Origin: Solimicrobium silvestre
GTDB taxonomy: Bacteria > Pseudomonadota > Gammaproteobacteria > Burkholderiales > Burkholderiaceae_D
Direction of reading: 5' to 3'
NCBI RefSeq assembly: GCF_002976435.1
Contig: NZ_PUGF01000006.1
Location: 62,001-126,000, forward strand
Length of the DNA: 64,000 nt
This document shows, piece after piece, positions 9,804 through 13,944 of the stretch. The notes beneath the pieces are model-generated. The model was not told the DNA's origin. It saw only the letters and a list, made by a program, of their open reading frames with translations, and did not search any database. The first letter of the stretch is position 1, and each line of letters starts with the position of its first letter. Made by a program: the position numbers and the translations under genes.

Positions 9804-11237
9804 CTAATCCAGTGCCTTCACCATATCTTCAATAACCTTCTTAGCGTCACCAAACACCATCATGGTTTTATCCATATAGAACAACTCGTTATCCAAACCG
9901 GCATAGCCTGACGCCATAGAACGTTTATTCACGATGACTGTTTTCGCTTTATAAGCTTCCAAAATCGGCATACCGGCAATCGGCGATTTAGGATCTTTAG
10001 CAGCCGGATTCACCACGTCATTTGCGCCTAACACTAATACCACATCGGCCTGGGCAAATTCGTTATTAATATCTTCCATCTCAAACACCTGGTCATACGG
10101 CACTTCGGCTTCAGCCAATAACACGTTCATATGACCCGGCATACGACCCGCTACCGGATGAATCGCATATTTAACGCTAATGCCTTTTTCCGTCAGGTGT
10201 TCGGTCAATTCTTTTAAGGAATGTTGAGCACGCGCTACCGCCAAACCATAGCCGGGCACGATAATCACGGTTTCAGCATTACCTAATAAAAACGCGACAT
10301 CATCAGCCGAACCGGATTTAACGTTACGTGCTGCTTGAGTACCGGTAGCTGCTTCGGCAGGTGCGCCGCCAAAGCCGCCCAACAACACATTAAAGAACGA
10401 ACGGTTCATGGCTTTGCACATGATGTAAGACAGAATTGCGCCAGATGAACCGACCAATGAACCGGCAATAATCAACATGGAATTGTTGAGTGAAAAACCA
10501 ATCCCGGCAGCGGCCCAACCTGAATAACTGTTCAACATGGAAACCACGACCGGCATATCCGCGCCGCCAATCGGGATGATGATGAGTACGCCCAGCGCAA
10601 AAGCGATTGCCGCCATCACCGCAAATGGCGTCCAGCTTTGTGTCACGCAAAACGCAATGCCGCAACCGAACATGGCTAATGCCAACACTAAATTGAGCAT
10701 ATGTTGGCCGGTAAAACTGACCGGTGCGCCCTGGAATAAACGGAATTTATATTTGCCGGATAATTTACCGAACGCGATCACCGAACCTGAAAAAGTAATC
10801 GCACCAACAAAAGTACCGATAAATAATTCGATTCGATTTCCGAATGGAATCAAGCCACCTTTTTCAGTCAGGTTAAATGCCCAAGGTTCAGACACTACCG
10901 CAACCGCAATACAGACTGCCGCCAAACCGATAAGTGAATGCATCGCCGCGACCAGTTCCGGCATTTTGGTCATTTCTACGCGCTTTGCTAACGTTGCGCC
11001 GATCACACCACCGACTACGACACCACCAACCACTAACGCCAAACCCATTCCTGAGCCTGCCAACTGCGATTTTAATTCCATCATCATCGCAATCGTGGTT
11101 ACGACTGCAATCGCCATCCCCGCCATACCGAAGGCGTTACCACGTCTGGCTGAGGTTGGGTGCGACAAGCCTTTTAACGCCTGAATAAAGCATACCGAAG
11201 CAATCAAGTACAACATCACGACTAAATTAATACTCAT
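9804..11237 (-). CDS. pntB: NAD(P) transhydrogenase subunit beta
   Basis: PntB is the membrane and NADP(H)-binding subunit of the proton-translocating transhydrogenase, which makes NADPH from NADH using the proton gradient. The protein has 477 residues. The N-terminal half has eight or more membrane segments. The C-terminal NADP domain has VIIVPGYGLAVARAQHSLKE and VNKRSMASGYAGLDNELF, both highly conserved. Its start overlaps the pntAb stop by one base (TAATG), showing coupling. All three subunits needed for the enzyme are present in this cluster. Confidence 0.97.
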   Translation of the reverse strand: MSINLVVMLYLIASVCFIQALKGLSHPTSARRGNAFGMAGMAIAVVTTIAMMMELKSQLAGSGMGLALVVGGVVVGGVIGATLAKRVEMTKMPELVAAMHSLIGLAAVCIAVAVVSEPWAFNLTEKGGLIPFGNRIELFIGTFVGAITFSGSVIAFGKLSGKYKFRLFQGAPVSFTGQHMLNLVLALAMFGCGIAFCVTQSWTPFAVMAAIAFALGVLIIIPIGGADMPVVVSMLNSYSGWAAAGIGFSLNNSMLIIAGSLVGSSGAILSYIMCKAMNRSFFNVLLGGFGGAPAEAATGTQAARNVKSGSADDVAFLLGNAETVIIVPGYGLAVARAQHSLKELTEHLTEKGISVKYAIHPVAGRMPGHMNVLLAEAEVPYDQVFEMEDINNEFAQADVVLVLGANDVVNPAAKDPKSPIAGMPILEAYKAKTVIVNKRSMASGYAGLDNELFYMDKTMMVFGDAKKVIEDMVKALD

Positions 11238-11566
11238 TATTTGTGCTCCTTGCTGTCAGCACTTACCTGCGCTTTTTTAGGCTCTTTTTTCTTAAACATT
11301 TCCAGCATGCGCTGCGTGACTAAAAATCCACCGAACACATTCACCGCCGCCAAGGCAACCGCCAGGGTTCCCATGACCTGCGCCAGCAATCCTTCAGTGA
11401 GTCCTGCTGCCAACATCGCGCCCACAATAATGATGGCGGAAATCGCGTTGGTAACTGCCATCAGCGGAGTATGCAACGCTGGCGTAACAGTCCATACGAC
11501 GTGATAGCCGACGTAAATCGCCAGAACAAAAATAATGAGATTAGTAAGCGTGTGACTGACTTCCAT
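11237..11566 (-). CDS. pntAb: NAD(P) transhydrogenase subunit alpha, membrane part
   Basis: This 109-residue protein is the separate membrane piece of the alpha subunit (PntAb, alpha part 2), as found in bacteria with a three-gene transhydrogenase. It has three to four membrane segments, including YHVVWTVTPALHTPLMAVTN, which is strongly conserved, and AAVNVFGGFLVTQRMLEMFK at the end. It is coupled to pntB by a TAATG overlap. The NAD-binding part, pntAa, lies upstream but is separated from it by panD and two repeat elements. Confidence 0.95.
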   Translation of the reverse strand: MEVSHTLTNLIIFVLAIYVGYHVVWTVTPALHTPLMAVTNAISAIIIVGAMLAAGLTEGLLAQVMGTLAVALAAVNVFGGFLVTQRMLEMFKKKEPKKAQVSADSKEHK

Positions 11567-11648: not shown

Positions 11649-11752
11649 TAGGACTTATACAAAATTGTTCCAGCAAGGCGTGCCGACGCAGACAGTACTT
11701 TAGTACGGCAAGGAGAGCACAACGCAGCTGGGGCGATTTTGAGTAAGTCCTA
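11649..11752. repeat. 104-bp inverted-repeat element, copy 1 (MITE-like)
   Basis: The element starts TAGGACTTATACAAAATTG and ends with the reverse complement TAAGTCCTA; about 25 bases at each end are imperfect inverted repeats. The centre contains GTACTTTAGTAC. It ends at the base next to the panD stop codon (11753-11755). It matches copy 2 at 12188-12291 in the same orientation and with the same length. No transposase is encoded, so it would be moved in trans if mobile. Confidence 0.88.
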
Positions 11753-12127
11753 TTAGTTAAACAATTTTTCCTTTTTTAGACCGGTAATCTGATTTTTTTC
11801 ATCGACAAACACGATCTTTGGCTGATACTTTGCCGCGTATTCTTCCGTCATGTGCGCGTAGGTACAAATAATCATCAAGTCACCTAATTGCACGCGCCGG
11901 GCAGCTGCACCGTTGAGTGAAATTTCACCGCTGCCACGTAGGCCTTTAATTGCGTAGGTGGCGAAACGTTCGCCATTGTTGACGTTGTACAGCTCTATCC
12001 GTTCACCGGGCAGAATGTCGGCCGCATCCAATAAATTTTCATCAATCCCGCATGAGCCCTCGTAGTTCAAGTCACATTGCGTGACGGTAGCACGATGAAT
12101 TTTGGCTCTGAGCATATTACGTTGCAT
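11753..12127 (-). CDS. panD: Aspartate 1-decarboxylase
   Basis: PanD decarboxylates aspartate to beta-alanine for pantothenate and coenzyme A synthesis. It is made as a proenzyme that cuts itself before a Ser to form the pyruvoyl cofactor; the site is Gly24-Ser25 in YEGSCGID, at the same position as in E. coli PanD. The 124-residue length fits. The gene sits within the transhydrogenase cluster, between pntAa and pntAb, flanked by two direct copies of a 104-bp element. This position has no evident metabolic reason. Confidence 0.96.
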
Positions 12128-12187
12128 TGTTTTTTCCTTACTTTCTTAACTGATTTTATTAACTTGCTTCTTTACTTATTAATTTAC

Positions 12188-12291
12188 TAGGATTTACGCA
12201 AAATTGTTCCAGCAAGGCACGCCGACGCAGACAGTACTTTAGTACGGCAAGGAGAGCGTAACGCCGCTGGAGCGATTTTTCGTAAGTCCTA
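12188..12291. repeat. 104-bp inverted-repeat element, copy 2 (MITE-like)
   Basis: The ends are TAGGATTTACGCAAAATTG and TAAGTCCTA, with the same core as copy 1, including CGACGCAGACAGTACTTTAG. It ends one base before the pntAa stop codon (12293-12295 on the plus strand). Copies 1 and 2 are the same length and differ at only a few positions, consistent with recent spread or gene conversion. Confidence 0.88.
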
Positions 12292-12292
12292 T

Positions 12293-13408
12293 TTACTTCT
12301 TTAACACTTCACCACCTGAACAGATCAATGTCGCGACAACTATTTCATCCTCACGATTAATCGCCAAGGCAGCATCTTTATCGATAATTAATTTTAAAAA
12401 ATCCAGCACATTACGCGCATATAAAGCGGAGGCGTCGGCTGGCACCAGCGTAGCCAAATTCGGCACGCCGATAATATGTACGCCATATTTAGTAACAGTT
12501 GTTCCGCATTCAGAGAGTGGGCAATTACCGCCCTGCTCTACCGCCATATCCACAATCACCGAACCCGGCTTCATGGCTTTAACGGTTTCTTCCGAAATTA
12601 AGATAGGCGCTTTACGACCCGGAATTAACGCCGTAGTGATGATGATATCGGCCAGCTTGGCGCGTTCATGCACCAGTTCAGCTTGACGCCGCATCCAGTC
12701 GGCCGGCATAGAGCGCGCATAACCACCCACACCTTGCGCAATTTCTTTTTCTTCATCGGTGATGAATGGCACATCAATAAACTTGGCACCCAGCGATTCG
12801 ACTTGTTCTTTAACTGGTGGACGCACATCGGAGGCTTCAATTACTGCACCTAAACGCTTGGCCGTTGCAATTGCCTGCAAGCCCGCCACACCCACGCCCA
12901 TAATCAATACTCGCGCTGCTTTCACTGTACCGGCAGCGGTCATTAACATCGGCATAAACCGGCCATAGGTATTGGCTGCCAACATCACTGCTTTGTAGCC
13001 TGCAATATTGGCTTGCGAGGACAACACATCCATCGCTTGCGCACGCGTAATGCGCGGCGCCGCTTCCAGAGCAAAAGCATGAATACCGCACGCAGCCATG
13101 GCAGCGGTGTTTTCAGTATCAAAGGGATTCAACATACCGACCAGCACACTGCCTGACTTCATTAATGCCCGTTCGGCACTGTCTGGAGCGCGGACTTTGA
13201 GCACCAGCTCACAACCGAAGGCATCAGCTGCGTTCACAATTTGCGCGCCCGCAGCAACATAGGCTTCGTCGGGAATGCTTGATGCAATACCCGCGCCGGC
13301 TTGCACCAGCACCTGATGCTTGGCAGCGAGATATTTTTTAATTGTTTCTGGGGTCGCCGCAACCCGAGTTTCACCTGACTTAGTCTCGGCGGGGATGCCA
13401 ATTTTCAT
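12293..13408 (-). CDS. pntAa: NAD(P) transhydrogenase subunit alpha, NAD-binding part
   Basis: This 371-residue protein is the cytosolic NAD(H)-binding part of the alpha subunit. The N-terminus MKIGIPAETKSGETRVAATP is typical. The Rossmann segment is VLIMGVGVAGLQAIATAKRL, followed by EASDVRPPVKEQVESLGAKF. PRITRAQAMDVLSSQANIAG is also characteristic. It is the first gene of the minus-strand cluster. Downstream come a repeat copy, panD, another repeat copy and then pntAb-pntB, so the distal genes depend on read-through or on an internal promoter. Confidence 0.96.
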   Translation of the reverse strand: MKIGIPAETKSGETRVAATPETIKKYLAAKHQVLVQAGAGIASSIPDEAYVAAGAQIVNAADAFGCELVLKVRAPDSAERALMKSGSVLVGMLNPFDTENTAAMAACGIHAFALEAAPRITRAQAMDVLSSQANIAGYKAVMLAANTYGRFMPMLMTAAGTVKAARVLIMGVGVAGLQAIATAKRLGAVIEASDVRPPVKEQVESLGAKFIDVPFITDEEKEIAQGVGGYARSMPADWMRRQAELVHERAKLADIIITTALIPGRKAPILISEETVKAMKPGSVIVDMAVEQGGNCPLSECGTTVTKYGVHIIGVPNLATLVPADASALYARNVLDFLKLIIDKDAALAINREDEIVVATLICSGGEVLKK

Positions 13409-13754
13409 ACATTCACTCCCTTTATTAATGAAATATTAATTCAGTGATATTCAATATCATTCAAGCAAAACCCGTGGAAATAGCATCAACATTCTTATTT
13501 CAATGAGGCACCGAAGTTTCGCACAACAAACTTATATCTGTGAGCGAGCTTCGCGCTCCTTGTTGCAAAAATGATGCACCAATGACACATTCAGCAGCCT
13601 TACGCGACCCCGTACTATATAGGGATACTCACTTAATTTCATCCTTTGCGCTTGAGATTTTATACATATTTTGCATTAGCAAATTACCCTTTCAACGCTT
13701 AACTGGGCAAGAACCGTTAAAATAGCGACCTTATTGATTCTGAAATCCAATAAT
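13409..13754. other. Intergenic region upstream of pntAa
   Basis: This AT-rich stretch should hold the pntAa promoter on the minus strand. It contains a short hairpin around 13541-13557 (GAGCG, loop, CGCTC). No convincing gene was seen; a 61-codon open frame here lacks a ribosome site and family resemblance. Confidence 0.5.
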
Positions 13755-13944
13755 TAGGACTTACACAAAATTGTTCCAGCAACGAGTTTATTAAACCCTT
13801 GCCGACGAAGACAGTACGAATGTACGGCAAGGAAAGGTGTAGCAGGGAATTCAACAACATCGTTGTTGCCTGCGTAACGGCACTGGCTTGCCAGTGTGCG
13901 CCCTACAAGGGCAACGCCGCTGGAACTGTTTTGTGTAAGTCTTA
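13755..13944. repeat. 190-bp enlarged copy 3 of the inverted-repeat element
   Basis: The ends TAGGACTTACACAAAATTG and TAAGTCTTA and the core GCCGACGAAGACAGTACGAA match the 104-bp copies. About 86 extra bases are present: one block after the left end and a longer one right of the core. The extra sequence holds its own hairpins, for example ACTGGC-TTGCCAGT and CAACAA-TTGTTG. It lies 39 bases before the nudix start and therefore within that gene's leader or promoter. Confidence 0.82.

Follow-up and report, generated by a model that had tools for sequence, protein, structure and literature searches.

A Correia-like hairpin element has inserted twice beside panD in the transhydrogenase operon of Solimicrobium silvestre

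The panD gene of Solimicrobium silvestre lies between the two genes for the alpha subunit of transhydrogenase, pntAA and pntAB, and is flanked by two direct copies of a 104-bp hairpin element whose core is related to that of the Correia elements (CREE, nemis) of Neisseria. Our analysis of the surrounding 64-kb stretch of DNA, called the window below, and of related genomes indicated, with a probability that we put at about 0.85, that panD has long been in place, that two hairpins of the Correia family, presumably moved in trans, inserted there separately, and that these hairpins would be transcribed and either tolerated or used in RNA processing. The relevant features of the window are as follows; R1 denotes a covariance model built from 43 sequences, none of them from the Neisseria-bearing group of genomes (f44).

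9804..11237, minus strand: pntB, transhydrogenase beta subunit (gene call and Pfam)
11237..11566, minus strand: pntAB, transhydrogenase alpha subunit, membrane part (gene call and Pfam)
11649..11752, plus strand (antisense to the operon): Correia-like hairpin element, 104 bp, copy 1, in the panD/pntAB gap (repeat search; R1, 106.0 bits)
11674..11725, plus strand: conserved core of copy 1 (CAAGGCG...CAACGC), aligned to the gonococcal Correia core (alignments)
11753..12127, minus strand: panD, aspartate 1-decarboxylase, the only copy in the genome (gene call, Pfam and genome search)
12188..12291, plus strand: Correia-like hairpin element, 104 bp, copy 2, of another subfamily, in the pntAA/panD gap (repeat search; R1, 111.8 bits)
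12293..13408, minus strand: pntAA, transhydrogenase alpha subunit, soluble part (gene call and Pfam)
13755..13944, plus strand: longer copy, 190 bp, with extra internal sequence, between pntAA and a divergent Nudix gene (end-motif search; R1, 34.8 bits)

The genes follow one another on the minus strand in the order pntAA, panD, pntAB, pntB, with each family confirmed by Pfam, and the best public matches to pntAB of the window came from Undibacterium and other Oxalobacteraceae. The two direct copies around panD, first noticed in an examination of the letters alone (the sequence-only reading), are indeed 89 to 90 % identical, and their inverted-repeat character was confirmed, the arms of the copy at 11649-11752 being 26 nt long and 81 % complementary. 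As also claimed there, this copy ends at 11752 and abuts the panD stop codon (11753-11755), and the other ends at 12291, one base short of the pntAA stop codon (12293-12295). A repeat finder extended the direct repeat to 11649-11754 and 12188-12293 (90 % identity, start-to-start spacing of 539). The end motif of the element gave five matches in the window with up to three mismatches, compared with 0.00 in 100 shuffles, and a covariance model search at E ≤ 0.1 returned six matches, that is, three places on both strands, with no further copy in the 64-kb window. The third place, the 190-bp copy at 13755-13944, had escaped the sequence-only reading, as had the many copies elsewhere in the genome. 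All three window copies lie within 2.3 kb around pntAA (11649-13944); the genome average is about one per 120 to 170 kb (31 copies or 43 pieces in 5.24 Mb).

The position of panD between the two halves of pntA is common in this bacterial family, and the gene order as such is ordinary. A panD match was present in 31 of 59 genomes searched, the own genome included, and we examined 29 panD loci of other genomes with flanks of up to 1.5 kb. In 10 of these, panD lies between pntAA and pntAB; in five, it directly precedes a fused pntA (42 to 45 % identical to pntAA, open frames of 525 to 569 aa), and the remaining 14 have no pnt gene in reach. By blastn, the element was absent from all 29 loci. Among the best 80 public pntAB loci, 29 carry panD between the halves, from many Undibacterium species, one Oxalobacter, four Cupriavidus, and one Massilia, and 51 have no panD in the stretch, including one Undibacterium species (L126); in one locus (L124), panD and pntAB are about 1.2 kb apart. 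The element was not found in the pntAA-panD-pntAB gaps of these public relatives, either by blastn over all 80 loci or with the model in a set of 100 loci, among them all 29. The 10 relatives and the 29 public loci may overlap. This comparison of gene order, which the sequence-only reading had proposed, thus yielded relatives that lack the element but have panD at this position, the very result named there as refuting its suggestion that a composite-like insertion had carried panD in. The two direct copies around panD would suit such a unit, as would four genomes of the same genus that have pntAA-pntAB without panD. However, besides the element-free loci, panD adjoins pntA even in its fused form, panD is single-copy in the own genome, and the flanking copies belong to different subfamilies and are not each other's closest relatives; the proposal that they are the ends of a unit that brought panD into the operon is practically untenable. 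Removing this tempting but wrong insertion story leaves panD as what would be the long-established second gene of a pntAA-panD-pntAB-pntB operon in this family.

The four genomes of the same genus (G001-G004; 81, 100, 90, and 98 % complete) show no panD match and no element in the pntAA-pntAB gap, and loss of panD is the simplest reading. We rejected loss by recombination between element copies, given that no element remains in that gap. These strains (loci L062-L065) may obtain beta-alanine in another way, lack it, or carry panD in unassembled sequence. It was also observed that, in this family, panD stays beside pntA whether the latter is split, with panD between the halves, or fused, with panD in front (L034, L036, L039, L041, and L042), and this proximity suggests a lasting link between beta-alanine and NADPH supply. 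In Undibacterium macrobrachii (L104), both gaps flanking panD hold other palindromic repeats, so that such gaps collect different kinds of palindromes.

The flanking copies also differ in their own relationships. In an alignment of 26 copies from the own genome, the copy at 11649 was nearest to one on contig C27 (L003, 91.3 %) and that at 12188 to L007 (95.2 %), followed by L013 and L006 (both 94.2 %), whereas the two were 89.4 % identical to each other. The same inner stem occurs in different versions in the two copies, GTG with CAC and ACG with CGT. Since they belong to different subfamilies, they are best read as two later, separate insertions of a mobile noncoding hairpin, each of which would have landed just behind a stop codon, that of pntAA or that of panD. 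With the elements removed, the gaps measure 61 and 82 nt, within the range of 14 public relatives (16 to 169 and 59 to 245 nt, respectively, as delimited by tblastn ends). No clean empty site was found at base resolution, and the junctions do not align cleanly with the relatives, whose intergenic sequence is too diverged for the exact insertion junction to be resolved.

The element is a dispersed hairpin with a conserved core of about 52 nt within fast-changing, self-complementary arms. By blastn (E ≤ 0.001; 40 of 51 candidates scored), at least 43 matched pieces were detected in the own genome, the three window copies included, some pieces sharing one copy. In 50 own-genome loci, some of them overlapping, 31 copies matched over at least 85 of the 104 positions; a few of these contain internal deletions (L190 and L198) or insertions (L023 and L191), and further copies no longer have the core or hold larger amounts of extra sequence. 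Forms consisting only of the arms, about 63 to 69 bp long, were seen in L194, L195, L200, L201, and L203, and many element ends show TA or CA. The 31 copies occupy 22 same-direction gaps, seven divergent gaps, and two predicted open frames. None lies in a convergent gap, which carries little weight, as the remaining gaps of the same loci comprise only three convergent ones beside 26 tandem and six divergent. Searches of Rfam gave no match over the window elements or over the elements in 13 loci from other genomes, one gonococcal locus included; the Rfam matches in L174 and L232 fall outside the elements. A plasmid collection searched with the window copy gave nothing at E ≤ 1e-5.

The fold of the element is supported by covariation. 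RNAalifold predicted 31 pairs for the 43 sequences, 26 of them with changes on both sides. Paired cells amounted to 93.4 %, compared with 75.0 % after shuffling and 30 to 44 % with slid partners, and cells with double changes numbered 234 versus 67.9 after shuffling, an excess of which part is expected because the counted structure was derived from the same alignment. Within the 26 own-genome copies, the corresponding figures were 94.8 % against 91.4 % shuffled and 30 to 47 % slid, and 11 of the 31 pairs showed double changes. Several of the invariant bases, such as A28, A63, A73, and A74, are unpaired in the model. For the two copies flanking panD, the RNA of the top strand is predicted to fold at -46.1 and -47.7 kcal/mol and that of the operon-mRNA strand at -37.7 and -37.8 kcal/mol, with hairpin z-scores on both strands between -4.2 and -8.4. 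The strands differ in their wobble pairs as well: read as the top strand, the 43 rows contain 122 G.U versus 33 A.C pairs, and the 19 rows from L210 up contain 41 versus 20, although this evidence is weaker than the totals imply because five consensus positions account for 78 of the 104 G.U cells of the own genome. The asymmetry points to one strand being the folded, recognized form, and the combination of a conserved core with free but paired arms hints at the part that a mobilizer or an RNA-binding protein would recognize.

Copies are enriched at stop codons. In the own genome, the facing gene end lies at -10 to +5 nt from the element for 11 of 22 stops but only 2 of 36 starts (p = 0.00015; this and the following p values are rough, since gene calling followed a simple open-frame rule and the loci include orthologous ones). 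The same preference held for 88 copies from other genomes, some of which contributed more than one (20 of 73 stops versus 5 of 67 starts, p = 0.0035), and with one copy per genome in 47 genomes (12 of 33 versus 4 of 47, p = 0.0037). Orientation is biased, too. Among copies in tandem gaps, 48 of 67 have their top strand antisense to the genes and 19 have it sense (p = 0.0005), and in the one-per-genome set 22 of 27 are antisense (p = 0.0015); the own genome alone gives 15 antisense and 7 sense (p = 0.13, not significant). In the other genomes, 14 of 88 copies lie in convergent gaps and 18 of 88 in a predicted open frame. In three further pnt operons (L125, L139, and L140), a related hairpin starts inside the pntB stop codon, again antisense. 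The simplest reading would be that an mRNA can accommodate the weaker of the two hairpins behind a stop codon but poorly tolerates the stronger one. The sequence-only reading had offered, as its second option, two targeted insertions into an existing gene order. Two insertions are what we found; targeting received partial support from the enrichment at stop codons, and selection after insertion could also have caused both this enrichment and the orientation bias.

Beyond the own genome, the element was found by sequence in 104 of 294 genomes of the family, in 21 of 44 genera (E ≤ 1e-6, three candidates scored per genome). At E ≤ 1e-4, with no more than 11 candidates scored per genome, model R1 found matches in 132 of the 349 genomes of the order and in 69 of its 148 genera, and the best E value was 1e-12 or lower in 54 genomes of the order, the own one included. 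The term order follows here a classification that counts f44, the group bearing the gonococcal repeat, within it; NCBI assigns this group to a separate order, Neisseriales. Of 29 loci of the order that were inspected, 28 carry GACAG in the core, and all 29 fit a loose pattern of the 3' core, written after they had been viewed. In 20 loci of other genera, the core matched at 83 to 91 %; the outer arms were unlike the window type in 18 of them and mutually complementary with few exceptions. At the level of the class, R1 matched 49 of 274 genomes at E ≤ 1e-4, the own genome and two others of the order included, and we inspected 11 and then 20 more of the matched loci. In 21 class-level loci inspected, CAAGGC was present on the 5' side in 19, AACG on the 3' side in 19, and GACAG in none, an agreement in core letters that is partly circular because R1 itself favors such letters. 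Beyond the order, the outer half of the core thus appears to be shared and the inner hairpin to differ, and a class-wide reach of the element family is likely. When 100 pnt and panD loci were searched as a control, R1 returned nine matches, one of them (L067, 28.6 bits) a plain hairpin lacking the core and another (L055, 41.7 bits) doubtful, so that the widest tallies above are upper bounds. In L303, L304, L305, L313, L321, L324, L326, and L246, the first seven from outside the order, related hairpins were observed as BIME-like inverted pairs about 2 to 21 bases apart.

The kinship with Correia elements is seen in the core. R1, built without f44, scored the gonococcal element at 67 bits, and local alignment of the core to that element gave 47 and 57 for the two window copies, where 2000 letter shuffles reached at most 27 and 24, respectively. 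The f44 element used (L281) is 99 % identical to N. gonorrhoeae sequence and occurs in at least 40 places in each of two N. gonorrhoeae records; the features AAATTTAAA and TCAGGACAA, described by Snyder, Cole, and Pallen (PMC2649163), are present in f44 copies. Neither of the published end motifs, TCAGGACAA and CCGGTACGG, occurs to the letter in the window copies; TCAGGACAA is found in L310. In this literature, the Correia repeat is traced to a first description in 1986, and the elements are treated as features of Neisseria with the mobilizer left undetermined (PMC2649163, PMC5039591) and as unique to that genus; size classes of 153 to 157, 104 to 108, and 69 to 73 bp are given (PMC2649163), and TA target duplication is reported. 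The element described here shares with CREEs the directional conserved core, which core alignments and R1 both recovered in the window copies, a long outer stem, a size of 104 bp that fits the middle class, a mostly intergenic location, TA or CA at many ends, and the lack of a known mobilizer. In contrast, its arms are similar in length to the 26-bp Correia repeat but unrelated in sequence, being GGACTTACGCAAAATTG-like, its long form measures 190 bp rather than about 155, and its host, judging from the closest public matches, belongs to Oxalobacteraceae near Undibacterium.

Because the 26-bp Correia repeat is missing as a terminal inverted repeat, we file the element as a relative of CREEs and not as a strict CREE, and for the same reason the window copies do not conflict with one published statement on CREEs. 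The two would nonetheless be homologous, sharing a related core, the same overall fold, and a common size, with outer arms that are different and fast-changing, and the restriction to Neisseria would be contradicted if the elements are defined by their core. A literature search of partial coverage brought up no report that we recognized of the element outside Neisseria or of panD inside a pnt operon. The element is therefore a new branch of a known kind, with a distribution wider than we found in print, and its relatives in water and soil bacteria make the origin and mobility of Correia elements comparable across many genera. ERIC sequences are imperfect palindromes in transcribed intergenic sequence of enterobacteria, a description that the present element resembles in other hosts. 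REP and BIME palindromes, often near the 3' ends of genes, are likewise dispersed and have one strand that folds better. REPs are, however, given as 20 to 40 bp (PMC3733652), and none of the 30 Y1 (RAYT) loci searched carried the element; for ERIC, insertion at the 3' end of genes is reported to alter transcript levels in some cases (PMC10969869).

How the element moves and what its copies do admit several explanations. An enzyme acting in trans would move it. The element may be an ordinary MITE, derived from an insertion sequence by deletion and mobilized in double-stranded form by a transposase specific for the terminal inverted repeats, and this is a serious candidate, if somewhat short of an even chance: TA or CA at many ends, the small size, the dispersed copies, and the arms-only forms agree with it, and Correia elements are called MITEs in two papers (PMC10969869, PMC2229807). 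Yet in comparisons between genera, conservation is lowest in the terminal repeats and highest in the core. Moreover, inspection by eye of 100 listed end matches, out of 123 in the own genome, revealed no autonomous insertion sequence with the same ends, nor any inward end pair at 0.7 to 2.5 kb except ends of separate complete copies. More tentatively, Correia elements may be a local lineage of order-wide, perhaps class-wide, mobile hairpins whose identity lies in the folded core and not in terminal repeats and which move as a folded single strand of RNA or DNA; with the element recognized and moved as a folded strand, the arms would be free to drift while still pairing. A REP-like element whose single-stranded DNA form is mobilized by a Y1 (RAYT) transposase would account for the wobble asymmetry of the strands and for the inverted pairs of related hairpins in some genomes, but such a link is improbable and we rejected it: none of 30 Y1 transposase loci (95.5 kb, E ≤ 0.01) contained the element, and of five genomes without Y1 among 26 searched (E ≤ 1e-5), four are element carriers (G336, G539, G319, and G103). 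A replication-strand bias was also rejected, as 26 copies against and 14 with the fork in one complete genome, its terminus assumed opposite dnaA, did not differ significantly (p = 0.08).

As to function, the copies might be domesticated regulatory RNA, kept to set the relative amounts of PntAA, PanD, and PntAB. The strong hairpins, the conserved core bases left unpaired by the model, and the position at stop codons would fit, and for Neisseria RNase III is reported to bind or cut Correia transcripts, along with an IHF site in the long form (PMC2649163). We consider this unlikely, since the element is absent from the pntAA-panD-pntAB gaps of the relatives examined and no gene family stands beside more than three of the 98 element loci compared, the threes being orthologous places or common families. 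Most likely, the copies are transcribed hairpins; within the operon mRNA, each would fold into a long hairpin beside a stop codon and either be simply tolerated or serve as a site of RNA processing.

Some copies in different genomes lie beside the same genes (named by eye), namely urease genes (L232, L234, and L239), prs with a ribosomal L25-like gene (L029 and L178), and alaS (L007, L188, and L233), and these are either old insertions or repeated hits. The urease locus L232, with an element between two urease genes, also contains an Rfam match to 5' ureB sRNA on the minus strand (2112-2397). In L209 (about 1499-1640), two element ends enclose a different palindrome of the GCGGGAAT type in place of the core, and in L207 and L208, near 1500, one element end touches a similar GCGGGAAT-type sequence, which gives the impression that one repeat entered the other or took its place.
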